Part shown: piece by piece, positions 413 through 31,450 of the stretch
Numbering within the stretch: position 1 is the stretch's first letter
Layout of the letters: each line of letters starts with the position of its first letter
Origin: Allobaculum sp. Allo2
GTDB lineage: Bacteria; Bacillota_I; Bacilli_A; Erysipelotrichales; Erysipelotrichaceae
DNA: 64,000 nucleotides
Assembly (NCBI RefSeq): GCF_022701175.1
Contig: NZ_CP078088.1
Location: forward strand, 2,356,001-2,420,000
Direction: 5' to 3'
The notes under the pieces: model-generated
Database searches by the model: none
What the model saw: only the letters and a program-made list of their open reading frames with translations
What the model was told of the DNA's origin: nothing
Position numbers and translations under genes: made by a program

Positions 413-590
413 GGTCTTCGTATGTTTTCGTTTTGTATTCGCTTCTGGATCTGCAGTTTCTTCCAGAGTCTATATTTGCTTTCTATATAATATTTGATGC
501 CCGCTTTATATTAGATGCCCGCTTTTTGAAACCAGAAAAGCCGAAGGGCGAAACGCCGCCGTTCCGTCGGGAGGCTGGCAGGCCGGCACC

Positions 591-952: not shown

Positions 953-1149
953 TGTCTTTTCTCCTTTTACGTTCAGGCTTCACCCGTTTTCGCGATCTCT
1001 TTTGCCCGCCATATGACCTCATTGCGGAGGAAAAGCTCTCTTTCTCGAGACATTCCGATCGACAAATTCTAGGTGCAGCTTCTCTTTTTCGCCGTCTTAA
1101 AACGGACCCGTTCTTTGTACAGTTTAACAAAACAGTCCTTTTCGACGCA

Positions 1150-1179
1150 TTGGAATGATGTTTTGGATCGTGTTACGCT
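1150..1179 (+). promoter_or_regulatory. Candidate promoter placing the start at the ATG
   Basis: TTGGAA (1150-1155) and TACGCT (1174-1179) are 18 bases apart. The ATG at 1187 lies 8 bases after the -10 box and has no clear ribosome site, as in a leaderless transcript. The -10 match is poor. Confidence 0.3.
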
Positions 1180-1186
1180 TAATGGT

Positions 1187-1608
1187 ATGAATCCAAGACA
1201 AAATTCTTCAACACGACGCGCTTCTCCGGCGCCTTCACGCCGTCGAGAAGACCTTTACTATTTAAAAAAGCGAAGCAGCGCATACAGAGCATGCTCATAC
1301 TGAGCTATGGCATTCTCTGCATCTGCTCGCTGGCCCTGTATTCCATTTTAAACCAGCCGCTCTTTTCCAAACCGCCCTATTTCAACTCGCTGTACATGAT
1401 GACGCTGTTTGTGGAGCTGGCCATGTGGCTGGGCATCTTCTTTCTAGCCGCGTTTGGCAAAAAAGCGTCCCGCTCGCTGTTTAATCTGGGCATTGCCGCC
1501 GAGTTTCTGTTTGCGGGCTGGCTCGTCTATGACCTTTTCCGGCACACCAGCTTCTTTGTGTTTTATCTCGTCTGGTGCGCGCTCGTTCTGATCAAAGGCT
1601 TTTACTGA
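1187..1608 (+). CDS. Small four-helix membrane protein, function unknown
   Basis: About 140 residues: a basic, Ser/Arg-rich N-terminus (MNPRQNSSTRRASPAPSRRR) followed by about four hydrophobic segments, e.g. LILSYGILCICSLALYSIL and FVFYLVWCALVLI. The two parts are in different frames and join when the A6 run at 1264-1269 is read as seven A, giving LYYLKKAKQRIQSMLIL. No catalytic motif is visible. Its stop codon overlaps the start of the next membrane protein (TGATG at 1606-1610), so the two are probably translated together and may form one complex. I do not recognise the family. Confidence 0.55.
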
Positions 1609-2717
1609 TGTGGTTTAAAAACTGGCTCTTTGATTCCTGGTTTGGCCGCATTTATTACGACCACGTTCTCTTCCTTCCGCAGGAAGAGCAGCGAAGAGAT
1701 CAGGCCCGTGCCCGAAACGCCCGCCGTGCTCGGGAGCAGCAGGCCAGAGCCGCTTCCGCACAAGCGCACCGGCAGCCATCGCCGACCCGACCGGGAGCAC
1801 AGACCGCTGTGCAGCCGGAGACACGAAGAAGCGCTCCGGCACGGTCCGCCGGCTTTCAAACGAATGGTGCAGCGGATTACGGATCGAACTCTGCGCAGCC
1901 CCAGCCTTCTCGCACCCCGCTTCGAAACCGGCCCGACCCGGACTTCTCAAGCGCATCCCCGCGAAGTTCGCAAGCGGACTGGGAAGCACAGGAAAGAAAA
2001 ACCAGTCGCCAGACCGCGCGCTCCGCACAGTCTTCCCCCGATTTGCAGGGAAATCCAGAGCGTGAAGAACAGCTTCGGCTTGAACGGCAGGCCAGAGCCC
2101 GCAAGGCACTGTCTTCGAAATATCCAAGAGCCGCCATTCGCATGGCGATCGGGGTATATGGCGAGCTGATCGTCTTTCCGATTCTGGTGCATCTCTTCCA
2201 GAACCGATTCGTTTCCATCGACAACGGATCCGTCTTCGCGACTGGTCTGATGTTTACCTTATGCATTCTGACCGCCGCCTTATGGACGCTGCCGATTTTC
2301 TTCTACTATTTAAAATACCCGGGCTCGAAAAAGAGTCTGTACGCGGCTCTGGGCGGTCAGCTTCTGATTCTCACCTATGGCCTGTTCATTTTGTATCGCT
2401 ACTGGAAAAGCGATACGACCGTCTACCCCGACAGCGCCTTCATTCTGTTTCTGATTTTTGAACTCGTCCGCTACGCGGTTTTGATCATCATGGTGTTTCC
2501 GGCATTCCGGCTTCCCAATATTTACGATCCTTATCGCAGCCGGCCGGCTTCAGATGAGGAAGAAAACTATGACGTCAGTGAAGAGGGCGTCCAGTTTGAA
2601 ATTTATGAAGACGATGATCCCCTTGATGAGGAAAATGAGGAAGAGGACAACGAAGATGCAGACGGCCCCGAATCCGATTTTGCGGGACGCCGCTCTGGCC
2701 GTTTTCGAAGACGGTAG
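1608..2717 (+). CDS. Membrane protein with long polar N-terminus and acidic tail
   Basis: About 369 residues. A short amphipathic start (MWFKNWLFDSWFGRIYYD) is followed by roughly 150 residues of Arg/Gln/Ala/Ser-rich, low-complexity and partly coiled-coil sequence (EEQRRDQARARNARRAREQQ). About five hydrophobic segments follow (residues 185-310), then an acidic tail (EDDDPLDEENEEEDNEDADG) ending in RRSGRFRRR. I chose the ATG at 1608 because it overlaps the TGA of the upstream gene. The charge layout suggests a structural or scaffold membrane protein rather than an enzyme; that is inference, and I recognise no domain. Confidence 0.6.
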   Translation: MWFKNWLFDSWFGRIYYDHVLFLPQEEQRRDQARARNARRAREQQARAASAQAHRQPSPTRPGAQTAVQPETRRSAPARSAGFQTNGAADYGSNSAQPQPSRTPLRNRPDPDFSSASPRSSQADWEAQERKTSRQTARSAQSSPDLQGNPEREEQLRLERQARARKALSSKYPRAAIRMAIGVYGELIVFPILVHLFQNRFVSIDNGSVFATGLMFTLCILTAALWTLPIFFYYLKYPGSKKSLYAALGGQLLILTYGLFILYRYWKSDTTVYPDSAFILFLIFELVRYAVLIIMVFPAFRLPNIYDPYRSRPASDEEENYDVSEEGVQFEIYEDDDPLDEENEEEDNEDADGPESDFAGRRSGRFRRR

Positions 2718-2759
2718 CCGTTCCCCTTTCCAATCGTTTACAGACCTTTTAAACCCATA

Positions 2760-2814
2760 GAGGCGCTGGCAGCGCATCGATCGAAACCCGATCAAAGCGT
2801 ACCAGCGCCTTTTC
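2760..2814 (+). terminator. Rho-independent terminator
   Basis: AGGCGCTGG (2761-2769) pairs with CCAGCGCCT (2802-2810) and is followed by TTTT. It ends the two-gene membrane operon. Confidence 0.75.
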
Positions 2815-2849
2815 TGCATCCCTGCCTGCTTTTTCCAGGCGCAAAAGCA

Positions 2850-2902
2850 AAGGCCTCTCTGTCCTTCTGGATCTGGAAAAGATCTTCAGGCAGAGAGGTC
2901 TT
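2850..2902 (-). terminator. Terminator downstream of gpmI
   Basis: AAGGCCTCTCTG and CAGAGAGGTCTT form the arms; on the minus strand the hairpin is followed by an interrupted T run. It lies about 40 bases past the gpmI stop. Confidence 0.6.
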
Positions 2903-2943
2903 GAATGCATCAAACAGGTTCGACCGAGCCGCAGCTCTTTCGA

Positions 2944-4534
2944 TTATTCTGCGGATTCGATGATGGAAGATCTCCAGTGTTCGTTGGGTTTTACGCCAAG
3001 AATTTCGCAGACGGTTGCTGCGATGTTGGAAAGACCCATGTCATCGTCCTGCTTGAGCTTGCAGTCGTAGTTGTAGACGATGAACGGAACCTTGTTGAGG
3101 GTATGGGAAGTTTTCGCCTTGAGCGGAGCGCCGGCTTTCTTTGGCTTCTCATACATTTCATCGGCATTGCCATGGTCGGCGGTAACGAGCAGAACGCCGT
3201 TTACGGCTTTAACAGCTTCGATGACGCGGCCAAGGGCGAGGTCAACGGATTCGACACCGATAATTGTGGCTTCCAGGCTGCCGGTATGGCCAACCATGTC
3301 GCCGTTTGGATAGTTCGTCCGCAGGAAGTCGTACTTGCCCGAACGGATGGCTTCGCAGAGCTTGTCGGTAATCTGAGCGGATTTCATCCACGGACGCTGC
3401 TCGAACGGGATTACATCGGATTCGATTTCTACGTATTCTTCTAGTTCTTCGGAGAACTTAGCGGCACGGTTTCCGTTCCAGAAGTACGTTACGTGACCGT
3501 ATTTCTGGGTTTCGGAAATGGCGTATTCGCTGATGCCGGCATTAACGAGCTGTTCGGTCAGCGTGTAATGGATTTTTGGCGGTTCCGTGAGGTATTTCTT
3601 CGGAATCTGCGCATCGGCATCGTACTGCAGCATGCCCGCAAATTTTACGTTAGGAACTTTTACGCGATCGAACTTGTCGAACGATTCATCGGCATCGAAA
3701 GCGATGGAAATTTCCTGAGCGCGGTCGCCGCGGAAGTTGAAGAGGATAACGGAATCGTTGTCATTGATCGTTCCTTTCGGATCGCCGTTTTCATCGACAA
3801 CGACAAAGCCTGGCAGGTCCTGGTCAACGACGCCGGTTTCTGCACGGTACGTTTCAATGGCTTCGGTTGCGGATTTGAAATTGCGTCCAAGGCCGCGCAC
3901 GTGAATCTTCCAGCCTTCTTCAACCATTGGCCAGTTGGCTTCGTAACGGTCCATCGTGATTTTCATGCGTCCGCCGCCGGAAGCGATCTGAGCGTCGAAG
4001 TCGGCATCGTTGAGATCGTTCATGAAGCTTTCGATTTCATCGACGTATTTCAGTGCGCTCGTTTCCGGAACGTCACGTCCGTCGAGCAGGATGTGCAGAC
4101 GTACGCGTTTCACGCCTTCTTTTTCGCCTGAGCGATCAGAGCCTTCAGATGATTGATATGGGAATGAACGTTGCCGTCCGAAAGAAGGCCAAGGAAATGC
4201 ATGGTGGAATCGTGTTCCTTTACGTTGTTTACGAGTTCTTTCCATGCAGCGGATTCGAACATTTCGCCGGATTCGATGTTCTCGTTAACGAGTTTGGCAC
4301 CCTGCGAGTAAATCTGTCCGCTTCCGATGGCGTTGTGACCAACTTCCGAGTTGCCCATGTCGCCGTCTGTAGGCAGACCTACAGCCAGACCGTGCGCACG
4401 CAGTTCTGTGTGCGGGCAGGTTTCCCAGAGTTTGTCGAGATGCGGTTTGTATGCCATTTTTACGGCATTTCCAAGAACGTTGTCAGACAGACCTACGCCG
4501 TCCATGACAACAAGAACTACAGGTTTTTAACCAT
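2944..4534 (-). CDS. gpmI: 2,3-bisphosphoglycerate-independent phosphoglycerate mutase
   Basis: Interconverts 3- and 2-phosphoglycerate in glycolysis, using two metal ions and a phosphoserine. About 530 residues, slightly over the usual 510. MDGVGLSDN near the N-terminus carries the first metal-binding Asp, and GDMGNSEVGHN holds the catalytic Ser; later motifs (LHILLDGRDVPE, NFRGDRAQE, VTADHGNADEM) are typical. The start is ATG at 4532-4534 behind AGGAGGAAATATTGAA. Two T5 runs (4524-4528 and 4120-4124) each need one extra base: the first gives MVKKPVVLVVMDG, the second gives AQAKKEGVKRVRLH. Since glycolysis normally depends on this enzyme, I take both as base-calling errors. Confidence 0.93.
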
Positions 4535-4564
4535 TTCAATATTTCCTCCTGGTTTATCCTCTTT

Positions 4565-4570
4565 ATTATA
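4565..4570 (-). promoter_or_regulatory. Candidate -10 box of gpmI
   Basis: TATAAT on the minus strand, 31 bases upstream of the gpmI start. No good -35 box is seen at the right distance. Confidence 0.35.
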
Positions 4571-4678
4571 GCGATATGCGCTTCGACCCGCCTTGAAAAA
4601 CCAATTTTCTGCCCGCATTTTCAGGCATGGATAGTTTGCTTAAAAGCCTTCTTTTCACCGGGCATGCCTGCCGCTTTT

Positions 4679-4723
4679 AAAACGGCGGCGCCTGTTTCAT
4701 TCGAGAGAAACAGGCGCCGTTTT
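4679..4723 (-). terminator. Terminator overlapping the end of the ABC permease gene
   Basis: A perfect 12-base stem (GGCGCCTGTTTC / GAAACAGGCGCC, 4687-4718) flanked by A and T runs. The last codons of the permease (TAPVSLE, stop at 4697-4699) lie inside the hairpin. It may work in both directions. Confidence 0.8.
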
Positions 4724-5557
4724 GTACACATACTTCAAAAGCGAAAAACGTTTTCTTCCATACAGACGTTTCAAAAGGATTTCAGGCGACCGGACTTCCT
4801 CCACATCCGCGTGCTTTTCCACGCGTCTTGCGCAAAGAAAAGCCAGTATGCCATCCAGAAGCAGAAAGGCCAGCGCCATCTTGTAAATGATTCGAACCAG
4901 ATCCGCGCCTTGAATTGTCGGACTGTCCAGAAGTGAAATGAAACCGGGTTCGAACACAAACAGCAGGCCCGCCGCAGTCAGCTGTACGATCAGCGCACAC
5001 GCAATGCCGGTCGCGATGAAAATCAGCCACTCCGAGCGGCCGTTTCTGTGGCCATAGGCTATGCCGAAGGCGCCGGAAAGCATATAGGCGATCCACTGGA
5101 CAATCACCTCAATGACAAACGCCAGGACCATCTGGCGTGCATCGACATCCAGAATGCCCCCAGTCTGAATTTCCGCGAAATCGTGCAGAACAAACGGCAG
5201 GGCCACCATAGCCGTAAAAAGCGCGATCAGAAGCAGAAGCGTAAGCAGACTCGTCACAAACCAGGACCAGTAAATGGTTTTCCGGTTGTAAGGCAGCGTA
5301 CGAATGAGATACGCTCTGGCGCTGTAAAAGCAGTCCGCAAACAGCTTCCAGATTTGAAAAAACGCTTAGAAGACCAGCGCCGCGCTCATCACAAATACCG
5401 CAATCAAAAGCAGATGACAGAGCAGCGAATAAAAGCGGCCGCTCCAGTCCAGACTGACCAGAATAAGCCATACGCTATAAACGATCAGCTGAATCAGCCA
5501 GACCGGAAGCAGACGCTTTCCGATCTGGGCAGTAAAGGTTTCGGTCAGTTTTTTCAT
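4697..5557 (-). CDS. ABC-2 type permease with an in-frame TAA
   Basis: About 286 residues with six hydrophobic segments, e.g. LIQLIVYSVWLILVSL and SLLTLLLLIALFTAMVALP; the size and place fit the membrane partner of a YtrB-like ABC exporter. It begins MKKLTETFTAQIGKR at an ATG overlapping the ATPase stop by 4 bases (ATGA). A TAA at 5366-5368 splits the frame (SAALVF-stop-AFFQIWKLF), while the same frame is open on both sides. This is a base substitution rather than the run shortening seen elsewhere, so it could be a true nonsense mutation or a read error. Substrate unknown. Confidence 0.7.
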
Positions 5558-6245
5558 AGCAGTGTCTCCACGAAAATCTGTTCCAGCGATTTTCCCTGTT
5601 TCTGACGAAGCGTATCCGCGTCTTCGTCCAGAACGATTTTTCCGTGCCGCAAAATGAGCGCCCGATCGAGGATGCGTTCAATTTCGCCGATCATATGCGT
5701 GCTGATCAGAATGGATGCTTCCGGACTGGAATGTTCCAGAATCAGATCGAGAATTTTCTGTCTCGCGACCGGATCGACACCGCCGATCGGCTCATCGAGA
5801 ATATACAGTTCGGCCTTGCGGCTTAGTACCAGAATCAGCTGCTGCTTTTCCTGCATGCCCTTGGACATCGATTTAATCGGCTGATTCAGATCCAGATCCA
5901 TCGCTTCCATGAGCCGGCAGGCTTTTTGCGATCAAAATCCGGATAGAACTTTTCAAAAAAGCGAAGAGTTTCCTTTCCGTTGGCGTTCAAATCCAGATAC
6001 GTTTTTTCCGGCAAATAGGAAATGCGCAGATGATCCGAGGGATCCAGCTTCTTTCCATCGGCGGAAATCTCTCCCTGCTCATAGACGAGCAGATCGTTGA
6101 TGCACTTGATCAGCGTACTTTTTCCAGCGCCGTTCGGGCCAAGCAGACCGGTAATCTGTCCGGGTTCGAGCGTAAACGACACATTCTGAAGCACCGGGCG
6201 GTTTCCATACGATTTACTGAGATGACGAACGTTCAGTTCCATCAT
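5554..6245 (-). CDS. ABC transporter ATP-binding protein (YtrB-like)
   Basis: About 230 residues. Walker A is GLLGPNGAGKST near residue 35, the signature region is KSMSKGMQEKQQL (a weak match to the usual LSGGQ, common in this subfamily), and Walker B is LYILDEPIGGVDP. ILISTHMIGEIE carries the switch His. The frame changes at the T5 run 5923-5927; a sixth base gives FDRKKACRLMEAMDL. It starts MMELNVRHLSKSYG behind AGGAGTAA, 32 bases inside the end of the GntR gene. With the permease it should form an exporter of the kind induced by cell-wall antibiotics in related operons; that role is inference. Confidence 0.85.
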
Positions 6246-7346: not shown

Positions 7347-9187
7347 ATGAATGTGCCGAACCCTTACCAGACAATCCGCAACGAGCTCCTCGAAGATCTT
7401 CATCATCAGATCAGCACCATGACGGAAGAAGAGAAAGACAAATTTATTGAGGATATGTACCTGGATCTCTATTTCGCTAAAGAAATCAATAAAGCCGTGA
7501 AAAGCGGCCGCTTTGGTCCTTCTACGGAAAAGATGGTTCCCTTGAAACTGGATTACTCTGAAAACGAGGACGGCGGCCCAGATATCAATATTCTGAATAA
7601 ACAGCTGGCTCAGCTTGATCTGAAAGCCGATGTTTGTTTTAACCGGGCTGCGAAATATCAGGAAGAGGGAGACCGCTATCGTAAAGAAGCTGAAGATTTA
7701 AAGCTCAGTTCTGTTGAAGGAAGCAAGAAAAACCTTCCACCAAGTGCAGAAAGCAGGAAGCGGTCAAAGAAACCACTACCTTCAGTGTAGAAGGGGAAAA
7801 GCGCATTTGCCCAGTTTGCGGCTGTGAGATGAAAACTGTTGGAATGAAACGTCACTATAGGATTCATCGGATTCCCGCTCGCTATAGGCTGGAAGAAGTG
7901 CTGCGTGAGACAGTCGCGTGCCCAAACAAGTGTACGGATGAAAACGGGAAAGCCATCATCCGCACCGCCGAACCTGACGAGCCTGCACTGATCGACAAGA
8001 GTGTCGCAACTTCCTCTATGGTCGCGGGAATTGCCTACGATAAGTTCGTAATGGGAACCCCGGCCTATCGTCAGGAAAAGCACCTGAGTCTCACGGGACT
8101 GCCGATCAGCCGTCAGACCATGGGCAACATCCTGGAAAAAACTTACGATCTTTATCTGAAGCCCCTCGTAAAACAAATGATTGAGGATCTCCCAAACTGT
8201 AACGTCGTCCATATGGATGAGACGGTTTTAAAGTGCACGGAGGTTAAAGATCGAAAACAGTCTTCTATGGTTGTCGCCGTCAGCGGAATCTATGAAGAGA
8301 ACCAGATGGCTGTCTATAAGTTTTTCCCTTACAAGAAACAGGAGTTCGTAATCGCCCTCCTTGGCGGTTCTTTTCGTCATGCCCTTATGACAGACGGGCT
8401 TTATGCATATGCCAACTACTATGGCCCCTGCAGAAAGCTCAACTGTATGGCCCATGCGAGAAGAAAGATCTTCGAAGCCATCAAAGTCCGGTCAGACTTC
8501 GCGCAGTATCAGGCAGACGTCCTGAAGTGGGAAAAGACCACACTGGAGAACGACGAAGAGGCCGCAGAAGCGGCAGCCCAGCTGGACGAAACAGAGAGAC
8601 CCGAACCAAGTCCGGGTCTCCAGATTCTGCTCACAGCCCTGTCTCTGTTCGGGAAGCTCTACCACATCGAATCCCACGTTGCTTCTTACTCGCACGAGGC
8701 GAGAACCGAAGTTCGGCAGGAACTTTCAAAGCCCTGCTTTGAAAGACTCACAAGAGTCATGATGGAGATTCAGAGTGGATTCGAGGAAAGAAGCACCGCC
8801 TACAGAGCAGCCAAGTACTTCATGGATCGAGCGAACTCGCTGGGAAGGTACCTGGAAGACGGTGATTATCCGATCGACAATAATGTGGCAGAAAGAGCCG
8901 TAAAGCCATTCGTGATCAATCGCAAAAACTTCCAGACTACGAAGAGTATCAAAGGTGCGGAAGTCGTCGCAGCGTTTATGACTTTGTTTCGATCGGCTGA
9001 AATGAACGACTTAAATCCAGAGCGCTACATGGAGTACGTTCTGGATGAACTCAAATGGTTCAAAGACGATGAAATCGCGGTAGATGTATTGAAGTCACTT
9101 CTGCCGTATTCAAAGGATTTACCTGAATATCTTCGAATTGGATACCGTGGACCGGATCCGAAGTATGAAGAAAACGATGAAGAATAA
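7347..9187 (+). CDS. tnpC: IS66 transposase TnpC (frame change inside)
   Basis: The DDE-type transposase. The N-terminal part (MNVPNPYQTIRNELLED...) has the coiled-coil and linker region; then come a zinc-binding segment (RICPVCGCEM...VACPNKC), the catalytic domain (MDETVLKC with the first Asp; MTDGLYAYANYYGP; CMAHARRKIFEA) and the C-terminal NNVAERAVKPFVINRKNF with the catalytic Glu. The frame changes near 7728-7732, where A5 read as A6 gives SVEGSKKKPSTKCRKQ and leads into the zinc segment. The same change occurs at the same site in copy 2, so it is either a systematic read error or a real frameshift site. About 613 residues when joined. Confidence 0.88.
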
Positions 9188-9380: not shown

Positions 9381-10133
9381 CTAGTCTTCTTTTTCAAGCG
9401 TCGTCTGGCGAAAGCGGGAAAGGAACTGTTTCGTTCTTTCGTTTTTCGGATGTTCGAAGACTTCATCCGGCGTGCCTTCTTCGGCGATGACGCCCTGATC
9501 CATGAAAATGACGCGATCGGATACATCTTTCGCAAACTGCATTTCATGCGTTACGACGATCATCGTCAGACCGGACTTGGCCAGGTCTTTCATGACTTCG
9601 AGAACTTCGCCGACCATTTCCGGGTCGAGCGCGGACGTCGGTTCATCGAACAGCAGCACTTCCGGATCCATGGACAGTGCTCTGGCAATCGCGACGCGCT
9701 GTTTCTGACCGCCGGAAAGCTTGGTGGCTCCCTTATCGAGGAAGTTCGACATACCTACGCGATCGAGATGCGTTTTGGCGATGGCGACCGCTTCTTCCCT
9801 GGAGCGCTTGAGCACCTTGCGCTGACCGAGAACACAGTTGTCCAGAACGCTCTTGTTCTGAAAGAGGTTGAAGTTCTGGAAAACCATGCCGACTTTCGAA
9901 CGATAGCCGTTCAGATCGCCTTTGAGAATGTCCTGACCGTGGAACGTGATCGTTCCCGAATCCGGGATTTCGAGCAGGTTGATGCAGCGAAGAAGCGTAC
10001 TCTTGCCGGATCCCGAAGATCCGATGATGGAGACTACTTCGCCTTTGTTAATGGAGAAGTCGATATCGTGAAGAACTTCCTGCTTGCCAAAGCTCTTCTT
10101 TAAATGACTGACACGAATTACAGGTTCACTCAT
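9381..10133 (-). CDS. Polar amino-acid ABC importer, ATP-binding subunit (probably lysine)
   Basis: 250 residues, GlnQ/HisP type. Walker [10 protein letters not shown] near residue 38, Q-loop [11 protein letters not shown], signature [16 protein letters not shown], Walker [17 protein letters not shown] and switch [10 protein letters not shown] are all intact. It is the last gene of a three-gene operon (binding protein, permease, ATPase); its ATG overlaps the permease stop by 4 bases. GlnQ-like sequence alone does not tell the substrate; the L-box riboswitch ahead of the operon points to lysine. A terminator follows. Confidence 0.93.
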
Positions 10134-10876
10134 GAGGACATCTCCATGAAAAGTTTCTTCTTTTCTTTTCCTTCGTTTTCGCGGGCGTTCATCCTGCGCT
10201 CAATGAAGCTGAGCAGCCAGGTAGCGAGCGTCGTAAGAACCAGATACAGAACGGCTGTATCGAGGTAAATTTCCGCGAAACGCATGTTGCTTCCCGCGAT
10301 GGAAGACGACTGGAAGAACAGCTCCGTTACGGAAATAGCGTTCATCATGCAGGAGTCTTTCAGATTGACGATCAGCTGGTTGCCGATAGCCGGGAAGGTA
10401 TTTTTGATGGCCTGCGGGAAAATAACCGAGACCATGGCCTGGAAGCTGGACATGCCGACCGCTTTGCAGGCTTCTAACTGGCCGGGATCTACGGACTGGA
10501 TGCCAGAACGCAGAATTTCAGCCATGTAGGCGCCGGTGTTGATCGAGATGATCACAAAACCGGCCGTAATCGCATTCCAGTGAATGACTGGAAGCAGAAG
10601 GTAATAAATGAAGCAGGCCTGAATCATCATCGGCGTACCGCGGAAAACCCAGATGTACAGGCCGGTGATGCCGCGTCCGAACTTCTTCAGTCCTTTCATG
10701 AAGGAAGAATCGAGCGGATCAACAGGAACGGAGCGGATGGCGCCGACAATCAGACCGATCAGAAAACCGAACACTGTGCCGACGATCGCAAAGGCGATCG
10801 TAACTTCGACACCGTGCCAGAACATCGGCCAGTTATTGACGAGCGCCCGCCAGGCGTAAGACCAGTCAATACTCAT
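10130..10876 (-). CDS. Polar amino-acid ABC importer, permease subunit
   Basis: 248 residues with about five membrane helices and the coupling motif typical of His/Glu-type permeases ([23 protein letters not shown]), which contacts the ATPase. The N-terminus [33 protein letters not shown] is usual for this group. The C-terminus is rich in Lys/Glu ([11 protein letters not shown]). It follows the binding-protein gene by 5 bases and overlaps the ATPase gene by 4, so the three should be made together. Only one permease gene is present, implying a homodimer in the membrane. Confidence 0.92.
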
Positions 10877-10881
10877 ACGGC

Positions 10882-11711
10882 TTATTCACCAGTCGTCGGC
10901 GCGTTCAGTACGGCATCCTGCATCATGGATTCGCGCTCTTCGGTTGTGATTTTGTCTAAAGCGTCCTGAACGGCTTTGAAGCTTTCGGTATCGCGGGTAT
11001 TGTTTTTCAGACCGATGGATACGGATGTATCGACATCAAAGCCCTTGCCGTCTTCAAACGTGATGTACGTCAGATCCGGGTTGGCCTGCACGATACCTTT
11101 GGCAACCGGAAGCTCAGCGGTAATCGCTTCGGCTTCTCCGGACTGCAGAGCCAGAATCAGCTCCGGATAGCGTGCTTTTGGAACGACGTGGATAACGCCG
11201 TCGATCTGATCGATGACGGTATCGTAGTTGGTGTTTTTCTGGCCGATGACTTTGTGGCCGGAGAACTGCTGAATATCGGTAAAGGAAGCGGCTTCGGAAT
11301 CCTTCGGTACGATCATGACCATTTCGCTTTCGGAATACGGGGTTGTGAAGTCAATGCCTTCTTCACGTTCTTCGTTTGCGGTCATTCCGGCAACGATGGC
11401 ATCAATTTCACCGGATTCAAGGGCTGGCTGCAGGCCGTCCCAGTCGATTTTTTAATGACAAGATCCTTGCCCATTTCGTCGGCGAGCTTGCGGGAAATGC
11501 GAACGTCGTAGCCGTCGCAGTAGCCGGCGCCGCTGGCCAGAGGAACCGTCGTATCGGTTTCGGTTGTGGTCTGCCAGTTAAACGGGGCGTAGCCGCATTC
11601 CATGCCGACGGTAAAGGTATTGGAACTGTCGCTGGTCTGCGCTGGTGCAGATGAGCATCCGGCAAGCATCATCATGGCAATGGCCGCTGCTGCAATCGAT
11701 GATTTTTTCAT
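10882..11711 (-). CDS. Amino-acid binding lipoprotein (probably lysine)
   Basis: About 276 residues. The signal peptide ends in a lipobox, MMLAGCSSAP, so the protein is attached to the outer membrane face by the Cys near residue 19. The SBP_bac_3 fold is seen in FTVGMECGYAPFNW, DGYDVRISRKLADEMGKDLVIK, GMTANEEREEGIDFTTPYSES and GEAEAITAELPVAKG. The T6 run at 11448-11453 is one base short: a seventh gives VIKKIDWDGLQPALESGEIDAI, joining the two frames. The start is ATG at 11709-11711, behind AAGGAGAAGAAAAATAC. First gene of the operon, directly after the lysine riboswitch and its terminator. Confidence 0.92.
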
Positions 11712-11774: not shown

Positions 11775-11946
11775 AAAAGATGAAGTTAAGATAACACCTC
11801 TTCGACCGAAGGAGTCTGCAAAGTATTTCCCTGCAGCCCAAGATCAGCCCCTGCCGGACCTGTCTTTCGGCGATGATTGCCTTTCCCTTTCTTCTTCGAA
11901 TGCCTTCTCCAAAAGGTACTATTCTGCACCGCTGCCTCTATCTTTT
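11775..11946 (-). ncRNA. Lysine riboswitch (L-box) aptamer
   Basis: The minus strand shows the conserved L-box elements in order: AGATAGAGGCAGCGG, then ATAGTA, GGGAAAGGC, ATCGCCGAAAG, TTGGGC and a closing TTTGCAGACTCC that pairs back towards the first element. A strong promoter lies 24 bases upstream, and a terminator hairpin with T6 downstream. When lysine is plentiful the RNA should stop transcription of the ABC importer, which assigns lysine as the transported amino acid. I judged this by eye; a covariance search would settle the boundaries. Confidence 0.88.
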
Positions 11947-11968
11947 TCCTGTTTCGTATGTTGCACTC

Positions 11969-12450: not shown

Positions 12451-15400
12451 ATGAACAAAAGGTACAGACTGCTCAGTCTGCTCTGTTCCGGCGCCATGGC
12501 GATGCAAAGCATTTCCGCTTTTGTACTCCCGATTTCGGCTGCAGAAAGCGCTCCGGATCAGACGGTTCGCGTACAGGCTGCCAAAGCGTCTCCGTTTCAC
12601 GATACGGACGGCGACGGCCTGGGCGAATTCGAAGGCTGGGGCACTTCGCTTTGCTGGTGGGCCAACCGCATCGGCTCAAGCGAAGCCCTGACTTCGGACA
12701 CGGCAGAGAAGTTTTTCTCCGATGACGGACTCGATCTGAACATCGGCCGCTACAACCTGGGCGGCGGAGACAGCACGATCGCTTCGCTCTCTCCAAACGA
12801 AAACGCCGTTCTGTGCACGCTCGAAGAAGGAAGCGCGCCGTCCTTTGGCGGATCCAAAATGCAGATTTCTTCGAAGACGTACAACGATTCGACGCGCTGG
12901 CAGAAAACGGACCGCGATCTCGGACTTCTCAAAGGCGCAAAGCTTGGCACTCTTAAGGAAATCGGCTGGATCGGACCGATCAACGGCACGGTAGGCAATG
13001 CGGACATGCTGACGTATACCGTTCAGGCAGAAAAAACCGGAACGTATACCGTCAAAGTGCTGGTTAAACTGGACGGTACGCACAACCGCGGCGTTTCCCT
13101 GCAAGTCAATCACGACAAAATTTACTCCGCTTCCACAGAGGAAATCGAAAAGAACATCATGGCCGTACAGGGAACGTGAAATTTTATATAGCCGTTCTCG
13201 AAAATGTGGAACTGGCTCAGGGCGAAAACACGCTGCAGCTTGGAGGAAACACAGCTTCTTCCAACACGTACATGCACGACTACATCGAGATGGCGGTCAT
13301 CCCGGAGGATCAGGTTCTCGAAGACGGCACGCAGGATCCCGGACTGCATCAGAGCCACATTATTCGCTCGGACTCCGCAGTCCCCGGCTACTGCACCAAC
13401 ATCACCCCGATCGTCATTACCGAGGAACACCCGCTCAGCTGGTATGTAGAAAACTTCACCCGGGCCGATCCAGACTGCGGATATGCCTGGAACTATGACT
13501 GGGAGGCCGACAAGGATCAGCTGAACGTGCTCAAGGCGGCGTCTTCGGCGTCCGGTCAGGATTTCATTGCGGAAATTTTCTCCAATTCCCCGCCGTATTT
13601 CATGACGGAATCGCTCTGCTCTTCCGGAAACTACACCGCCAGTCAGAACAACCTGCGCACAGACAGCTACGACGCCTTTGCAACGTACATGGCAGATGTC
13701 ATCGAACATCTCCATCAAAACGGAGTGACGTTTGAGAGCGCGTCGGCGTTTAACGAACCGAATACCGATTACTGGGGCGCCTATTCCAGCAAACAGGAAG
13801 GCTGCCATTTCGACGCAAACGCCATTTCGCAGATTCTGGTCCGTCTCAACGCAAAGCTGGAAGAAAAGAACATTGATCTCCAGCTGAGCGCGTCTGATGA
13901 AACGAGCATCGATACGCAGATCACCACGTACAACGCACTCAGCAGCGAAGCAAAAACCGTAGTCGATCGCATCGATACGCACACGTATGGCGGGAGCAAC
14001 CGTGCCGGTCTGCAGGCTTTAGCGAAAAAGAAGAGAAAATCTCTGGATGAGCGAAGTGGACGGCGGCTTTACCGCCGGAAGCAATGCCGGCGAAATGAGC
14101 GCGGCTTTAGGTCTTGGCAAGCGCATCATTACCGATGTCAACGGCCTCAACTGCTCCGCCTGGATTTTCTGGAATCTGATCGACAAGCATGCCGATAATT
14201 CCGAATACGGCCAGAGCTGGATTTCGTCTTCCAATGGCATTGATAAAGCCACGCTCGAAGATCTCGGCTGGAACGGTCAGACCGGCGGCTACTGGGGCGT
14301 CGCGGCTGCCGATCATAACACCGGCCGCCTTGCCCTTTCCATGAAGTACTACGGCTTTGGCCAGTTCACCCGCTACATCCGTCCGGGCTATACGATTCTC
14401 GCTTCCAGCGACAGTACGCTTTGCGCCTATGACCCCGACGAGCAGAAAGCCGTCATCGTCGCCATCAACGACAAAGCCGACGCACAGACGATGCAGTTCA
14501 ACCTAGGCGATTTCAGTCATGCGCCAGGCAAGGTCACCGCGATCCGTACGAGCGGCTCAATGGAAGAGGGCGAAAAATGGAAAGACGTCAGCGAAGAAGC
14601 TCTCGCCTCGAAAGATGATCATTCCGTAACCGCAAATCTGAAAGCCAATTCCATTACGACGTACATCATCGAAGGCATCGGCAAGCCAAAACGCATGCTG
14701 GAAGATAGCGGCGCTTTGCGTACCGATCTCTCCTTTGATGTCCAGGACGGAGAAAGCGCTCTGCGCGATCAGTCCGGCTATGGGCTGGATGCGCCTCTGA
14801 CCAGCCTGGACAGTGCCGACAGCGCAAGCTATGGCGAAGCCTCGATTTTAAGCTTCAGCCAGAACGGCTACGTCACGCTGCCCAAGGGCATGATCGAAGA
14901 CGGAAACGCCTTTACGATCAGCCTGAGCGCCTATGCGCCGCAGACATCCAGCCACTGGCTGCTGACGCTTGGCAGCAAGGAAGGCGTATGGCCAAACGTC
15001 GACAACTATTTCTTCCTGACGCCAAAGAGCGGACAGGGCGGCTACACGGATAAAATTCTTGCCGCCATCTCGCAAAGCGGTGAAACCCGTCTGCCCGTCA
15101 ATACCGACAAAGTCGCCTCGAACACCGCGTTTAATACGTATACCATCGTCTCGGACGGTTATACGATCACAGTGTATCTGGATGGCGAAAAAGTCACCGA
15201 ACTCGACCACTCCAAAGACTGGAGCCAGATTTTAACCGGCGATCGCGACGGCTATATCGGAAAATCGCTTTATACGCCCGATCCTCTCTTCTCCGGTGCA
15301 GCAGCTTCCTTCAAAGTGTGGAACAAGGCCCTGAACAGCGAAGAGCTCGCACAGGCCTGGAAGGAAGAGCCCAATAAGGACGACTGCATGAAAGCCGCCC

Positions 15401-18400
15401 TGGCGCAGGCGATTTTAAACAAAAACAAGAGCGTCGATGCGATCGACTCCGATCTGAACTTACCAGCGCAGGTCTATGGACAGAACGTCACCTGGAGCGT
15501 TTCGGAAAATGATGCGATTTCCGCAGACGGCAAGTACACGATGCCGCTGGCCGATACGAAAGCAAGCATCACCGCAGCCTTCACCGGCACCGATACATCC
15601 TATGTTCTGGATCTGAACGTGCCCGGCGAAGATCCCGACAAAATTGTTTCGGATGCCAAAGCCGAACTGTCCATTCCGAACGCCGACAACATCAAGGGAA
15701 ACATCAGGCTGCCCGATCATCTGGGCAAAGCGTCGATTACCTGGTCGATGTCCGAATCGGGAAACGGCATTCTCGATCTGAGTGAAAAAGAAGCCAGCGT
15801 CCCTGGTTATGGCAAAGTTCCTGCCGGCGTCATCACCCGTCCGGCAAGCGATACGAACGTCACCTTAACCGCGACGATTTCCTACAAGAACACAACCGAA
15901 ACCAAAGTCTTTGATCTGACGATCAAGGCCGCGCCGAAGCAGCAGGAAATGACGGATTATTTCTTCGCCTATTTCACCGGCGAAGGAAAAGCCGACGGCG
16001 AACAGATTTACTTCTCCGCCAGCCAGGACGGCCTGAACTGGAACGACCTCAACGACGGCAAGCCTTCGCTCGTATCGTCTCTGGGCGAAAAAGGCGTCCG
16101 AGACCCGTACATTTGCGTTCTCCCGAAGGCGACAAGTTTTACATCATCGCCACCGATCTCAAAATCAACGGCAACGGAAACTGGGATCGCGCCCAGAAAG
16201 CCGGCTCGCAAAGCCTGCTCGTCTGGGAATCCGATGACCTCATCGACTGGGGCGAACCGCGTCTGGTCGAAGTGTCTGCATCGATTGATGCCGGATGCAC
16301 CTGGGCCCCGGAAGCTGCGTACGATCCGCTGACGGGCGAATACATCGTCTACTGGTCCAGCAAAGTCAAAGGCGACAATTACGCCAAGCAGCGCGTCTAC
16401 TATACCCGTACCCGTGACTTCTGCACGTTCAGCGAGCCGCAAGTATGGATCGACAAGGATCAGTCTTCAATCGATACGACCGTTATTGCTCATAACAATG
16501 CCTACTACCGTCTGACCAAAAACGAAGGCGGCGAAACGAACAGTCTAGGCGCGAAAACCAAGACGCTGTTCCTGGAAAAATCCGATACGCTTCTTGGCGA
16601 GTACACCCACATCGCTTCCGATTCGCTCAACGCCAACCAGTATGTCGAAGGTCCGGCCATTTACAAGCTCAACGCCGACGACAGCGCCAGCGACAAATGG
16701 ATCCTGCTGGCGGATGACTTTGGCGGCATCGGCTACTACCCGCTTGAAATTTCCGATCTGGACTCGGGCACTTTCACAAAACTTGAAAGCGGCTTTAAGA
16801 TGCCGTCCGGCGCCCGTCACGGAACGCCGATCGCCATTTCGGCCGAAGAATACGACCGCCTGATGAAAGCAAACGGCCAGGCGGAACCCGTAAACACCTG
16901 GTATTCGACATCCTCCAAGAGCGGTCTGCCCGAAACCGTCACCATCGGTCATTCCAGCTATCCGGTGACATGGCAAAACGAAGATTTGTGGAGCAGTCAT
17001 AAAGCCTTCGATACGGTTACGATTAGCGGCACTGCCGTTCTGGATGAAGCGAAAAACGAGACTATGAAGGTTTTCGCTTCCGTTCAGCTGATTCCGGAAA
17101 ACATGGAATACATGATCGATTGCAACAACCCCGACTCGCTTTCCCACAAATACGCTCTCGCGTCTTCTTCCCAGATGAAAAACACCGTCAGCGAACAAGT
17201 CAAAACGGACGAAAACACATGGGGATCGCTCTCGAGAATCGGCGAAAACAGCGGCGATGTCGACATGGTCGCCTTCTCCCAGACCAGTCTGGAAAACCCG
17301 TATACCGGCGGATACTGGGCGCGAGGCGGCAAGACGATTTCGTATGCGCTGACGCTTCCTAAAGGCGACCATACGATTTACGTCGGCGTCAACGGCTGGT
17401 GGAGCGTCAGCCGCACGATGAAACTGGACGTGACGACATCCAAAGGCACTTCCAAACTCATGGACTGCAACGTCACCAGTTCGAAAGAAACGCTGCACAG
17501 CGCCAATATTCATCTTGATCAGGAAGAAACGATTACCCTGACCCTTTCCAAAACGGACAATCAGGATCCGATTCTTTCCTGGATCGGCGTTTCCTTAAGA
17601 CCAGCCCCGATAAGACCCAGCTCGAATCCCTGCTTGCCGAAGTATCGGCCCTGAATGAAACCGACTGGACACCTTCGACCTGGAGCGCCCTGCAGGCGAA
17701 ACGGGAAGCCGCCCAGAATACAGTTTCTAATCCGAATGCGAGTGAGGAGGACGTCAGGGCTGCACTCTCCGCACTGCAGGCAGCCAGAGACGCGCTGAAG
17801 CGCCAGTGGAGCGTCACCTTCAAAAACGGAACAACTGTCCTGAAGAAGGCGTATGTCGAAGACGGCCAGAGTGCTGAAACGCTCGCTCCAGCCGCTTCGG
17901 AGGTTACTGTTCCCGAGGGCAAAGTGTTCATAGGCTGGACGCCTGCGTTTGGACCGGTTCATGCCATGAAGGAATACACCCCTGTCTTTGAAGACGCGCC
18001 AATCGTGGTGGATAAGGAGGCTTTGCAGGCACGCGTCGATGCGATTGAAGCGGAACAGCTTGCTCTGCGTCCCGATGAAAATCACAGCTATGTAAAAGCT
18101 TCATTTGAAGCGCTGAATACCGCTCTGGATCAGGCAAAACGCGTTCTGAATGACAGCGACGCCCAACAGAAGACGGTCGATGCCGCGCTCGAATCGCTTA
18201 ATACCGCCCGTTCGAATCTCACGCTGGTCGACCTGACGTTTGTCCGGCTGACCCATAACAAGTATGAGTCGCTCAACCTGTCGCTCTTTAAGGCGGATGG
18301 AAAAGCGGCTCTTACAGAGGCTGCATCGGCTGCCAAAGCGCAGATCGACAATCCGACCAGTCAGAAGGCTGTCAATGACGCGGCCAGTGCTCTGAACCAA

Positions 18401-18451
18401 ACCCTTTTGAAACTGCGCAAAAATCCAGAAGATCCAAAAGCGAATTTCTAA
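12451..18451 (+). CDS. Giant secreted glycosidase: GH30-like, LamG, Ig-like, GH43-like, FIVAR-like
   Basis: About 2000 residues with a signal peptide (residues 1-31, ending SAFVLPISAA). Domains by base position: a GH30-type barrel (EGWGTSLCWWANRIG near 12634; acid/base Glu in NEPNTDYWG at 13754; nucleophile Glu in SEVDGG at 14053), a carbohydrate-binding-like insert in the barrel (12940-13300), the GH30 beta domain to 14690, a LamG-like domain (14720-15350), Ig-like segments (15460-15940), a GH43-like five-bladed domain (GVRDPYI, DAGCTWAPEAAYD, VEGPAIYKL; 15955-16860), an Ig-like PVTWQNEDLW unit, a galactose-binding-like domain, then FIVAR-like helices and an InlB-type repeat (17600-18440). 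The start of the GH30 resembles beta-1,6-galactanases, so arabinogalactan side chains are a likely substrate. Frames join at 13170-13172, 14025-14039 (two losses), 16112-16114 and 17597. No LPXTG signal is seen at the end. Confidence 0.85.
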
Positions 18452-18761: not shown

Positions 18762-20395
18762 CTAATCCTGGACGTGAATTTTCATGCCGTTGGGATTGGA
18801 AGAAACGGTTATGGACGATTTTGTATCTTTGTTCTCGCCGGGGCGTTCTGGATAGGTTGCCCGGCGTTTGGATGCGGTGTTGAGTTCGGGTGTTTCCACG
18901 CGAATCGATTTGTTCTGCGAGGAACTGTTATTGTGCTCGGAGGAAGAAATCCAGTTTTCACGCACCGTCTTTTCTTCTTTGCTCTCCTCGACTGTGCCGT
19001 ACCAGGCAATGCCTTCCTGATTCCAGCCGGCTTTTTTCAGATAGCTGTATTCGTTGGAATCCGTAGTGAAGTGGTGCGAGCCCGTTCTGGCATTCGGGTT
19101 ATAGACACGGTAAACCGGCGTGCCTTCCTTCAGATCGGAATACCAGCCGATGCCTTCGTACGTCCAGCCGGCTCGAATCAGGCCGTCTTTCTCTTTGGCA
19201 TCCATTGTGTAATGGTGGTCGCCCGCATTCGGGTTGTACAGGCGGAAAACCGGCTCGCCCGTCGCTGGAAGCTGCCAGGCGGTGCCTTCATCTTTCCAGC
19301 CCGCATCGCACAAGAAGGCCCATTCGTTGCGGTCGGCGGTGTAAAAATGTTCGCCGGAATTCGGGTTGTAGACGCGATACATCGTCTTAGGCACTTCGTT
19401 TACCGTGCATAACGATTTCCAGTCTTCGGCGGAACCGAAAAACTTGTTGAGATCGAGATCGCCGTCGTAGCCTTCCAGACGGCCTCTCGACGAATACTGG
19501 TGCATCCAGTATTCCTCAAAGGCGCCCGTACCGGCCCTGTCGGTAAACGTATTTTCCCGATAGCCGTTCTGCACTTCGTTCTGGCCATAGTTGGCGACCC
19601 AGAGGGGATACCCTTCTTCCGCCAGACGGCTCCAGTCCAGCGTCCGGGTGTAATAGCTGCTCATGTAAATCATGCACTTCATGCCGGACAGACTGTAGTA
19701 GGCTTTCACAAAGCGGTACGCCCAGTCGGTATCTTTCGCGCTTAACAGATCGCGCGCTTCAAAGTCGAGAATCGGCACGCCCTTGCCGATGTAGGCACGG
19801 GTTGTGCGGTAAAAAAATCAGCTTCCTTTTCCGGCGTGTCTTCGCAGCCGCGATCATGCGCAAAGTGGTAAAAGCCAAACAGCTTGCCGCTTTCAAGAAT
19901 GCTCGAGGCGTACTCGTAAAATTTCGGATCCCGGTAGCCGTTGCCGCCGGATGCCTTGCAGATGATAAAATCCGCATCCATGGCCGCCGGATCGATACCG
20001 TCCTGCCAGCGGGAAATGTCAATACCGTTGAGCTTCACGTCGCTCTTGCGGTGATTGTCGAGCGGAAGAGGCATGGACGGCTTGTCTTCCTCCTGTTCGC
20101 TCGCTTCTTCCACGATTTCCTCTGTTATGACTGCCGGCGTTTCTGGAGCGGCCGGATCAGCAGTCGGAGCGGAAGGCGCAGTGTTATCGGATGGAGTGTT
20201 GTCCGGTGTGGAAGACGGTTCAAGCGGCATGGAGGATACGTCCTGCGAAGGGCTGCCCGTCTGCGGCATGGAGGAGGTGTGCGTTTCTTCCATAGGCTGA
20301 ATGTCCTGCGCATGCACAGGAAGGCCGCCCAGCACCAGACCGCCGGCCAGCGAGGCCTGCAGAAGCCTGTTTCGTGTTGTTTTATAGTTCATCAT
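18762..20395 (-). CDS. Secreted GH25 lysozyme with three C-terminal DUF5648-type repeats
   Basis: About 544 residues. The signal peptide ends at GGLPVHA; a Ser/Pro/Thr-rich linker (residues 30-110) leads to the GH25 domain: GIDISRWQDGID with the catalytic Asp region, ADFIICKASGGNGYRDPKF, FGFYHFAHD, PILDFEARDL and WMHQYSSRGRLEGYDGDLDLNKF. Three repeats of about 40 residues follow (MYRVYNPNSGEHFYTAD, FRLYNPNAGDHHYTMD, YRVYNPNARTGSHHFTTD), a module found on secreted enzymes and thought to bind cell-wall or glycan. The T8 needed at 19811-19817 is read as T7; restoring it gives EADFFYRTTRAYIGKGVPIL. The start is MM at 20395 behind AAAGGAGATTGC. It should cleave peptidoglycan, either its own or that of competitors. 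Confidence 0.9.
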
Positions 20396-23908: not shown

Positions 23909-25747
23909 TTATTCTTCATCGTTTTCTTCATACTTCGGATCCGGTCCACGGTATCCAATTCGAAGATATTCAGGTAAATCCTTTGAATACGGCAGAAGTG
24001 ACTTCAATACATCTACCGCGATTTCATCGTCTTTGAACCATTTGAGTTCATCCAGAACGTACTCCATGTAGCGCTCTGGATTTAAGTCGTTCATTTCAGC
24101 CGATCGAAACAAAGTCATAAACGCTGCGACGACTTCCGCACCTTTGATACTCTTCGTAGTCTGGAAGTTTTTGCGATTGATCACGAATGGCTTTACGGCT
24201 CTTTCTGCCACATTATTGTCGATCGGATAATCACCGTCTTCCAGGTACCTTCCCAACGAGTTCGCTCGATCCATGAAGTACTTGGCTGCTCTGTAGGCGG
24301 TGCTTCTTTCCTCGAATCCACTCTGAATCTCCATCATGACTCTTGTGAGTCTTTCAAAGCAGGGCTTTGAAAGTTCCTGCCGAACTTCGGTTCTCGCCTC
24401 GTGCGAGTAAGAAGCAACGTGGGATTCGATGTGGTAGAGCTTCCCGAACAGAGACAGGGCTGTGAGCAGAATCTGGAGACCCGGACTGGGTTCGGGTCTC
24501 TCTGTTTCGTCCAGCTGGGCTGCCGCTTCTGCGGCCTCTTCGTCGTTCTCCAGTGTGGTCTTTTCCCACTTCAGGACGTCTGCCTGATACTGCGCGAAGT
24601 CTGACCGGACTTTGATGGCTTCGAAGATCTTTCTTCTCGCATGGGCCATACAGTTGAGCTTTCTGCAGGGGCCATAGTAGTTGGCATATGCATAAAGCCC
24701 GTCTGTCATAAGGGCATGACGAAAAGAACCGCCAAGGAGGGCGATTACGAACTCCTGTTTCTTGTAAGGGAAAAACTTATAGACAGCCATCTGGTTCTCT
24801 TCATAGATTCCGCTGACGGCGACAACCATAGAAGACTGTTTTCGATCTTTAACCTCCGTGCACTTTAAAACCGTCTCATCCATATGGACGACGTTACAGT
24901 TTGGGAGATCCTCAATCATTTGTTTTACGAGGGGCTTCAGATAAAGATCGTAAGTTTTTTCCAGGATGTTGCCCATGGTCTGACGGCTGATCGGCAGTCC
25001 CGTGAGACTCAGGTGCTTTTCCTGACGATAGGCCGGGGTTCCCATTACGAACTTATCGTAGGCAATTCCCGCGACCATAGAGGAAGTTGCGACACTCTTG
25101 TCGATCAGTGCAGGCTCGTCAGGTTCGGCGGTGCGGATGATGGCTTTCCCGTTTTCATCCGTACACTTGTTTGGGCACGCGACTGTCTCACGCAGCACTT
25201 CTTCCAGCCTATAGCGAGCGGGAATCCGATGAATCCTATAGTGACGTTTCATTCCAACAGTTTTCATCTCACAGCCGCAAACTGGGCAAATGCGCTTTTC
25301 CCTTCTACACTGAAGGTAGTGGTTTCTTTGACCGCTTCCTGCTTTCTGCACTTGGTGGAAGGTTTTTCTTGCTTCCTTCAACAGAACTGAGCTTTAAATC
25401 TTCAGCTTCTTTACGATAGCGGTCTCCCTCTTCCTGATATTTCGCAGCCCGGTTAAAACAAACATCGGCTTTCAGATCAAGCTGAGCCAGCTGTTTATTC
25501 AGAATATTGATATCTGGGCCGCCGTCCTCGTTTTCAGAGTAATCCAGTTTCAAGGGAACCATCTTTTCCGTAGAAGGACCAAAGCGGCCGCTTTTCACGG
25601 CTTTATTGATTTCTTTAGCGAAATAGAGATCCAGGTACATATCCTCAATAAATTTGTCTTTCTTTCTTCCGTCATGGTGCTGATCTGATGATGAAGATCT
25701 TCGAGGAGCTCGTTGCGGATTGTCTGGTAAGGGTTCGGCACATTCAT
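23909..25747 (-). CDS. tnpC: IS66 transposase TnpC, copy 2 (frame breaks)
   Basis: Same protein as in copy 1; all catalytic and zinc-binding segments from RICPVCG to the C-terminus are intact. The start corresponding to copy 1 is ATG at 25745-25747. Three places break the frame: near 25670 (GAAGAAAGAAAGAC against GAAGAAGAGAAAGAC in copy 1), the A5 run at 25363-25367 shared with copy 1, and a G-run near 25308 that has three G against four in copy 1. Whether this copy can make transposase depends on which of these are real. Confidence 0.85.
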
Positions 25748-29284: not shown

Positions 29285-31450
29285 TTAATGCAAAATGGCT
29301 TCCGGATCGCCTCCGATTTTTTCAGGCGGGCGTGCAGGGAAAGCGTACGCGTCGTGCTCAGTTTATCAAACTGAATCACGATTTTTGTGCCTGTCGATCC
29401 AGATCGAGAATGATGCCTTCTCCAAAGACAGGATGCGCGATGCGATCGCCGCTTTGCAGCTCGTTTTCGTTTTCCGACTCCCCTTTTAAAGAACGGGAGC
29501 GCAGCGAGATGAAGCGGGTCGCGGCCTGAATGAGATCTTCTGGAATCGGCGGCTGCCAGACGGCGTTTTCCAGCCCGATATCAAAGAGAAAGCGCGAAGG
29601 CATGCGATTCGATCCCGAATGCAGGATGCCCTGTGCATCGCTGAGATACAGCTCCTTTTGGCGCGGGTCAGGGCGACAAACATCAGGCGCCGCTCTTCTT
29701 CCATCTGCGGGCGGGTTTTCGTCTGCCTCGACGGGAAAATGCCTTCATCGAGCGCCGGCAGAAAGACGGTGTCAAATTCCAGTCCCTTCGCCGTATGAAT
29801 GGTCATCAGGCGTACCTGATCGCTGGTCGTCTGTCCATCAGCAGCGGAAAAGAGCGCGTTCTGGTTCAGCCACGATTCGAGCGTCGTATCTTCTCCCACG
29901 ACACTTCAAATTCGGCAGCCGCCTGCTTCAGTTCGGCAAGATTGTCGAGGCGATCCTGGGCGCCGCGCAGGCGCTGTTCCTTTTCGTAGCCGGAGCGGTC
30001 AAGCACTTCATCGAGCACCTGGCTGATCAGCCGGTCCTGCCATACCGTTTCTTCCACGACCGCGATATACTCAGCCGCTTTGGTCGACGCGAAATAGTCG
30101 CTTTCGCTGTTTTCGACGAGCGCCTGATAGAGCGAGATTTCCCTCTGTTCGGCATAGTCCTTTAAAAGGCGATGCGGCCTTTTCCAATGTTGCGCGGCGG
30201 ATCGTTGATCGTGCGCAAAAAGTCGAGATCGTCCCGGTACAGCAGCATGCGGCAGTACGAGAGCGTCGTCTTGATTTCCGCACGCGAGAAAAACGGCACG
30301 CCCGAATACACGGCGTACGGAATGTGCGCCGCAATGAGCGCGTCTTCAATCGGACGCGTTAAATAATGAGCGCGGTACAAAATGGCCATGTCACGATACG
30401 CCACGCCTTCCTCATGACGGGAAGCGATGCGCGAGGCGATCCATTTTGCTTCTTTTTCCGGCGTTTCAAAATGACCGGCTTCCACCGGTTTTCCATCCGG
30501 CAGAAAGGGTATCAGATCCTTGTCGATCCGGTTCGCGTTTTTGGAAATGAGCGAGTTGGCCGTCTTCAGAATCTGAGGCGTGGAGCGGTAGTTTTCGTTG
30601 AGCAGCACCGTCTGGCACGGATGAAAATGTTCATCAAAATCGAGCAGACGGCGTACGTTGGCGCCGCGCCACGTATAAATGGTCTGGTCGGGATCGCCGA
30701 CCACAAACAGATTGTGATGAACTTTGGCCAGCGCATCGATCAGGCGGTACTGCAGACCGTCGATGTCCTGGAACTCGTCCACCATGATGTATTCAAACCG
30801 CTGCTGCCACTTGCGGGCGACATCGGGATTTTCGTCAAAGATTTTCAGCGTCAGCAAAATCAGATCGTTATAGTCGAGGCCGAAGTTTTTCTTCTGCGCG
30901 CTCAGATACCCGTAAAAATCTGATCCTGCGGATCGATCGCGTTTTCGTATTTTTTCTGAATGGCTGCGGGCGAGAGCGCCACGAGATCTTCCCGGTAGTT
31001 CGGCTCGTCCTTGATCTTGCGGATTTCAATCATGTCCCGCGCCTTGGAAAACGTCATGTCGTGAAGCGTCAGTCCCTTTTCGTCGTACACCTGCCGCAGA
31101 AGCTGATCGATATCCGCGTTGTCGAGCACCACAAACGATTTCGGATAGCTGATGATGTGGCTTTCCTCGCGCAGGATCATCGAACAGAGCGAATGGAACG
31201 TACAGATCGTCCCGCACTGATCGTCTCCGGTGAGTGAGCGGATGCGCGATTTCATTTCGGCTGCCGCTTTGTTCGTGAACGTAATTGCCAGAATGCTTTC
31301 CGGAATCATGCCGATCTCGATCAGAAAGGCATACCGGGCGGCGAGTGTTCGCGTCTTTCCGGAACCGGCGCCCGCAACAACCCGGACGTAGCCTTCAATG
31401 GCTTCGACCGCTTCGGTCTGCGACGGATTTAAAATGAGATCATTTTCCAT
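29285..31450 (-). CDS. pcrA: PcrA/UvrD-type superfamily 1 DNA helicase
   Basis: About 720 residues, normal for PcrA, which unwinds DNA 3'-5' in repair and replication of rolling-circle plasmids. The N-terminal LNPSQTEAVEAIEGYVRVVAGAGSGKTRTL holds the Q motif and Walker A; ITFTNKAAAEM, YIMVDEFQDI (motif II), GDPDQTIYTWRGA (III), LNENYRST (IV), MTIHTAKGLEFDTVFL (V) and RRLMFVALTRAK (VI) follow. The C-terminal FGEGIILDLD...IVIQFD is the usual Tudor-like end. Slips needed: 30913-30917, 30180-30183, about 29890, 29656-29659, 29382-29386 and 29317-29322; with them it ends KKIGGDPEAILH. The ATG at 31448-31450 lies inside the end of the lipid kinase gene. Confidence 0.9.

Follow-up and report, generated by a model that had tools for sequence, protein, structure and literature searches.

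A secreted Allobaculum protein joining GH30_5-like and GH43_22-like domains, a probable enzyme for type II arabinogalactan side chains

The coding run at positions 12451 to 18451 (+ strand) of the window, the 64,000-nucleotide stretch of the Allobaculum sp. Allo2 genome that was analyzed, is one gene by comparison with a congener, and its ~2,000-residue secreted, multimodular product is probably an enzyme acting on type II arabinogalactan side chains. This dietary fiber (gum arabic and AGPs) has side chains whose digestion takes two steps, the removal of arabinose and the cleavage of 1,6-galactan. In the literature examined, separate proteins perform these two steps, whereas the window chain carries both a GH30 and a GH43 catalytic domain.

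An N-terminal signal peptide (MNKRYRLLSLLCSGAMAMQSISAFVLPISAAES, 12451 to 12549), assigned by inspection of the sequence, precedes a GH30 barrel encoded in two parts. The first (EGWGTSLCWWAN through NIGRYNLGGGD, 12612 to 12771) was aligned with the solved structure 24td and with Bacteroidales GH30 proteins, and the equivalent region of a paralogue in the congener G004 aligns to 24td. The remainder of the barrel, with an appended beta-sandwich and the second frame change (13335 to 14700), matches Pfam Glyco_hydr_30_2 (PF14587; 9.7e-23). PF14587 is the fitting model, as PF02055, also tried for GH30, had no match in the genome. The best solved relative of the window piece 13176 to 14012 is 24td (2.8e-24), the GH30_5 endo-beta-1,6-galactanase of Streptomyces avermitilis (Sa16Gal30A), followed at a distance by 3clw (GH30_4; 7e-9), 7n6h (GH30_10; 1.5e-6), and GH30_8 structures. 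The same structure is also the best solved match for the G004 paralogue (8e-36) and for a Bacteroidales GH43-GH30 fusion (2e-55).

The first-pass annotation had placed GH30 catalytic glutamates at 13754 and 14053. Both residues are present and align with Glu217 and Glu320 of Sa16Gal30A (PMC13431644), the former being the acid/base of FNEPN and the latter the nucleophile of LWMSEVDG (14053 to 14055), but the first coordinate was off by one, the codon being 13755 to 13757. The glutamine of KQEGCH (13794 to 13796) corresponds to Gln229, the residue that recognizes the axial O4 of galactose (PMC13431644). Eight of the nine subsite -1/-2 residues named in the Sa16Gal30A crystal paper have equivalents in the window (Asn216, Glu217, Gln229, Tyr294, Glu320, Trp350, Asp354, and Trp359), the sole difference being a lysine at the Pro355 position. 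The secondary, distal galactobiose site is not conserved (Trp341 to Gly and Asp302 to Ala, with Arg301 kept); this site is a GH30_5 feature conserved in several characterized enzymes and is not described as catalytic (PMC13431644). Because it is not kept, the domain is filed as GH30_5-like rather than with certainty as GH30_5, its strict membership of the subfamily being slightly in doubt. Sequence identity to 24td is low, and both the GH30 and GH43 subfamilies were assigned by the nearest characterized relative. The GH30_5 identity that had been looked for thus agrees with the best solved relative and with the galactose-selecting residues, and beta-1,6-galactanase is the best-supported activity predicted for this domain.

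Loop 2 of the barrel, which is already long in GH30_5, holds a beta-rich insert of ~188 residues (12772 to 13334) that contains the first frame change. The insert is bounded by GGGD (12760 to 12771) and DPGLH (13335), and compact Bacteroidales GH30 enzymes have ~30 residues there instead. A carbohydrate-binding-like segment inside the barrel had been noted earlier; the segment is real, and its binding nature has only subthreshold matches behind it. The two G004 copies of the insert matched the CBM-like PF14683 at 1.4e-4 (22.2 bits against a cut-off of 27) and 1.2e-3, and one of them matched CBM_35 at 0.013, all below the curated cut-offs; a profile search against solved structures found no relative, returning only chance antibody matches. 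A carbohydrate-binding role for the insert is plausible.

The GH43 domain is a GH43_22-like five-bladed propeller (15949 to 16870) with the third frame change inside it. No GH43 family in Pfam matched the window gene, and the only GH43 model that did was NCBIfam NF052546, an alpha-arabinofuranosidase model built on BAD_1527 (window piece, 3e-43; G004 orthologue, 4e-66), with a score under the equivalog cut-off (224 versus 500 bits). By this match, the GH43_22 enzyme BAD_1527 is the nearest characterized relative. The GVRDPYI and VEGP motifs reported earlier were confirmed by alignment, and all three catalytic acids are conserved: the base Asp of GVRDP (16102 to 16104), the modulator Asp (16473 to 16475), and the acid Glu of VEGP (16647 to 16649), with roles taken from PMC11264647. 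The RDP, SIDTT, VEGP, and CTWAPE motifs mark the base, modulator, acid, and -1 subsite Trp, respectively, and equivalence of the acids to D58, D194, and E259 of BaAbf43C is deduced from these motifs.

Between the catalytic domains lie a LamG domain (Laminin_G_3, 14857 to 15351; PF13385, 4.2e-12) and two atrophied bacterial Ig domains (aBig_2, 15391 to 15945; PF20578, 8.3e-15, in two stretches, the best at 15649 to 15930). The GH43 domain is followed by an Ig-like and beta-sandwich module (16887 to 17609) that has no Pfam match and ends at the fourth frame change. Copies of this module occur in three genomes (G000, G001, and G004), including the long G004 open frame described below, and the ~240-residue all-beta unit recurs in several large proteins of the genus (L026, L029, and L031 to L035). 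AlphaFold2 run on the module alone gave a low-confidence all-beta model (mean pLDDT of 47), too poor for a fold search. It is a candidate carbohydrate-binding module. The C-terminal region carries FIVAR repeats (17609 to 18448; PF07554, 1.7e-19), and no LPXTG-type anchor was seen there by inspection. The Pfam and NCBIfam matches of the gene lie well outside what chance would produce.

In G004, the orthologue lies on contig C21 (L037) in an open frame of 1,988 codons (170 to 6136) that runs unbroken through GH30, F5/8 type C, LamG, Ig, GH43, the module, and FIVAR. Its first ~70 to 100 N-terminal residues are in another frame, and the genomes searched yielded no orthologue that is intact over its whole length. 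The F5/8 type C domain is absent from the window protein. Searches of ~950 genomes, with up to ~400 each in the class and phylum, found the full window architecture in just two, G000 and G004, and a search of viral contigs returned no relatives. The window genome has only one gene of this type in a search against itself, and G004 has in addition an intact tandem paralogue of 1,301 codons (L037:6594-10499) that shares GH30 and its insert, F5/8 type C, the module, and FIVAR and lacks GH43. A long GH30 protein of G048 (2,264 codons) proved by inspection to contain a different kind of GH30.

Read from stop to stop, the window gene consists of five consecutive stretches in frames 1, 0, 1, 0, and 2, from an ATG at 12451 to a stop at 18449 to 18451, joined by four frame changes (near 13165 to 13192, 14012 to 14026, 16105 to 16116, and 17590 to 17612). 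The first-pass annotation had proposed a single secreted protein after repair of five slips; the single chain stands, with four. As no open frame in the window spans both catalytic domains, two or more adjacent genes might have been wrongly joined, but the frame changes sit within domains, there is no start, stop, or ribosome-binding gap between domains, and a single frame of the congener runs from GH30 to FIVAR. This extremely improbable reading is largely refuted. Four frame changes within 6 kb, together with the frame change near the start of the G004 copy, could instead reflect real mutations in a decaying pseudogene. Indels are nevertheless found genome-wide: rpoB, an essential gene, is split into three frames in the window genome and is a single frame in the congeners G001 and G002, a GH25 lysozyme gene with DUF5648 (18762 to 20395, - strand) is broken within its catalytic domain as a further sign of assembly indels, and the genome, although one 2.73-Mb contig, has a completeness rating of only 58.4%. 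The breaks are explained without any nonsense point mutation, and dN/dS is 0.07 to 0.39 for all orthologous pieces, by which measure every domain is under purifying selection. Decay in the window strain is quite unlikely, and the most economical reading is that the four frame changes look like assembly indels, which are technical.

A further alternative leaves the chain intact and changes its substrate: the GH43 domain would debranch arabinan or arabinoxylan and the GH30 domain would cut another beta-glycan, giving an enzyme for pectin or hemicellulose. Members of GH43_22 do differ in this respect. For BlArafA and BlArafE the substrate is type II arabinogalactan, from which they release arabinose (PMC8939339, PMC11264647), in keeping with the earlier expectation of a GH43 subfamily active on that polymer, whereas BlArafB and RjAbfA act on arabinan (PMC11264647, PMC8939339), and BAD_1527 is active on arabinoxylan and arabinan and inactive on larch arabinogalactan (PMC11264647). 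GH30 likewise includes xylanases, and the XynC model NF052681 gave a weak match (2.6e-15), far below its cut-off. The neighboring genes (lysine transporter and GH25 lysozyme) do not form an arabinogalactan cluster at the locus, which counts against an arabinogalactan role. Against the other substrates stand the GH30_5 structure as by far the best structural match, the long loop 4 (KQEGCH) of the GH30_5 type, and the presence of Gln229, a residue that confers selectivity for galactose and prevents xylan from binding (PMC13431644). A pectin or hemicellulose substrate is accordingly judged unlikely, and type II arabinogalactan is the preferred one.

Under the arabinogalactan reading, the C-terminal GH43_22-type domain would strip terminal alpha-L-arabinofuranose off the side chain of 1,6-linked galactan by an inverting mechanism (Asp base and Glu acid), giving access to the GH30_5-type domain at the N terminus. 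The latter would then cut beta-1,6-galactosyl bonds with retention (acid/base Glu at 13755 and nucleophile Glu at 14053), yielding short 1,6-galacto-oligosaccharides, mainly galactobiose. The loop-2 insert, LamG, and the module at 16887 to 17609 probably hold the substrate, and the FIVAR repeats may space the enzyme or tether it to the cell surface. Fusion would set the stripping domain beside the cutting domain. The pairing has a clear logic, since published 1,6-galactanases of the endo and exo types are active only once the substrate has been dearabinosylated, for which they rely on an arabinofuranosidase (PMC8424115); similarly, Bl1,6Gal of Bifidobacterium longum is unable to use substrate that carries arabinose (PMC7889515).

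The same two families are also joined in a second phylum. When 84,980 species genomes were scanned for GH43 relatives, nine Paludibacteraceae/Bacteroidales loci (L002, L004, L006 to L009, and L011 to L013) were found to encode GH43, GH30, and ricin-B in a single ~1,040-residue chain; at a tenth (L019), the fusion is interrupted by the contig end. Both catalytic families resemble those of the window protein (~50% identity for GH43 and ~40% for GH30), but the domain order is reversed, LamG, Ig, insert, and FIVAR are absent, and the C terminus is a ricin-B lectin. AlphaFold2 models of the nine fusions (mean pLDDT of 47) were too poor for a fold search. In both the GH43 and the GH30 trees, the two fused groups form separate, well-supported clades that are not joined; shared ancestry of the fused groups apart from their unfused kin was not firmly excluded (AU p = 0.054). 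The reverse domain order argues for separate joining events and suggests that the pairing arose twice. A secreted GH16 protein with a ricin-B-like domain (L006:12892-14394) lies directly downstream of one Bacteroidales fusion gene; because its best matches are to laminarinases, it is not decisive for the substrate. In Paenibacillus polysaccharolyticus, GH43-AbfB and GH35 genes lie between two GH30_5-like genes under a LacI regulator.

The reverse-order pairing in another phylum and the dearabinosylation requirement (PMC8424115) both strengthen the arabinogalactan reading, and with the GH30_5 and GH43_22 nearest relatives they favor the original proposal that one chain may strip and cut arabinogalactan side chains. 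A broader proposal is more tentative, and we regard it as possible but doubtful: fusion of GH30_5 with GH43_22 would have occurred on at least two occasions, with opposite domain orders in Bacillota and Bacteroidota, because dearabinosylation and 1,6-galactan cleavage are processively coupled in one molecule, and a genus-specific sugar-binding insert in a cleft-wall loop of the galactanase would feed the stripped chain to the active site. The two-domain chain and its mirror-order counterpart make intramolecular synergy on arabinogalactan directly testable, and the fusion could mark arabinogalactan users among bacteria that lack an obvious polysaccharide use cluster at the locus.

Several other features were observed around the gene. 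A lysine riboswitch (11784 to 11948, - strand) lies upstream of an amino acid ABC transporter operon (9381 to 11711, - strand), which suggests lysine-regulated uptake; a frame change near 11382 interrupts the binding-protein gene of the operon. IS66 family transposase genes on opposite strands (7829 to 9187, + strand, and 23909 to 25381, - strand) flank the region with the enzyme gene. An open reading frame at 30902 to 32479 (- strand) combines a diacylglycerol kinase domain with the start of a UvrD helicase and is probably two genes merged by a frame error.

No published GH30-GH43 fusion was found in the open literature, most subscription papers lying outside the search; the component families are known, and the fusion arrangement is new relative to that literature but is not a new mechanism. 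Sa16Gal30A of S. avermitilis shares with the window protein the barrel, both catalytic glutamates, and most of the subsite -1/-2 residues, but it consists of barrel and beta-sandwich only, whereas the window protein adds the loop-2 insert and GH43 and lacks the distal galactobiose site. LamG and Ig beside GH43_22 are the known layout of BlArafA, BlArafB, and BlArafE (PMC8939339), and in its C-terminal half the window protein therefore resembles these enzymes, with the GH30 half as an addition. By their published description, BlArafE and BlArafA of B. longum are likewise secreted, combine GH43_22 with LamG and bacterial Ig domains, and take arabinose off type II arabinogalactan (PMC8939339); both carry a membrane anchor at the C terminus, and no LPXTG-type anchor was seen in the window protein. 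BlArafE also has two catalytic domains acting in sequence, but its partner is GH43_34 (PMC8939339) rather than a galactanase-like GH30. Bl1,6Gal, a 1,6-galactobiohydrolase of B. longum, belongs to the same family as the window GH30 domain and acts on 1,6-galactan side chains after arabinose removal; it is a separate protein with no arabinofuranosidase domain described (PMC7889515), whereas the window GH30 domain is fused to GH43.
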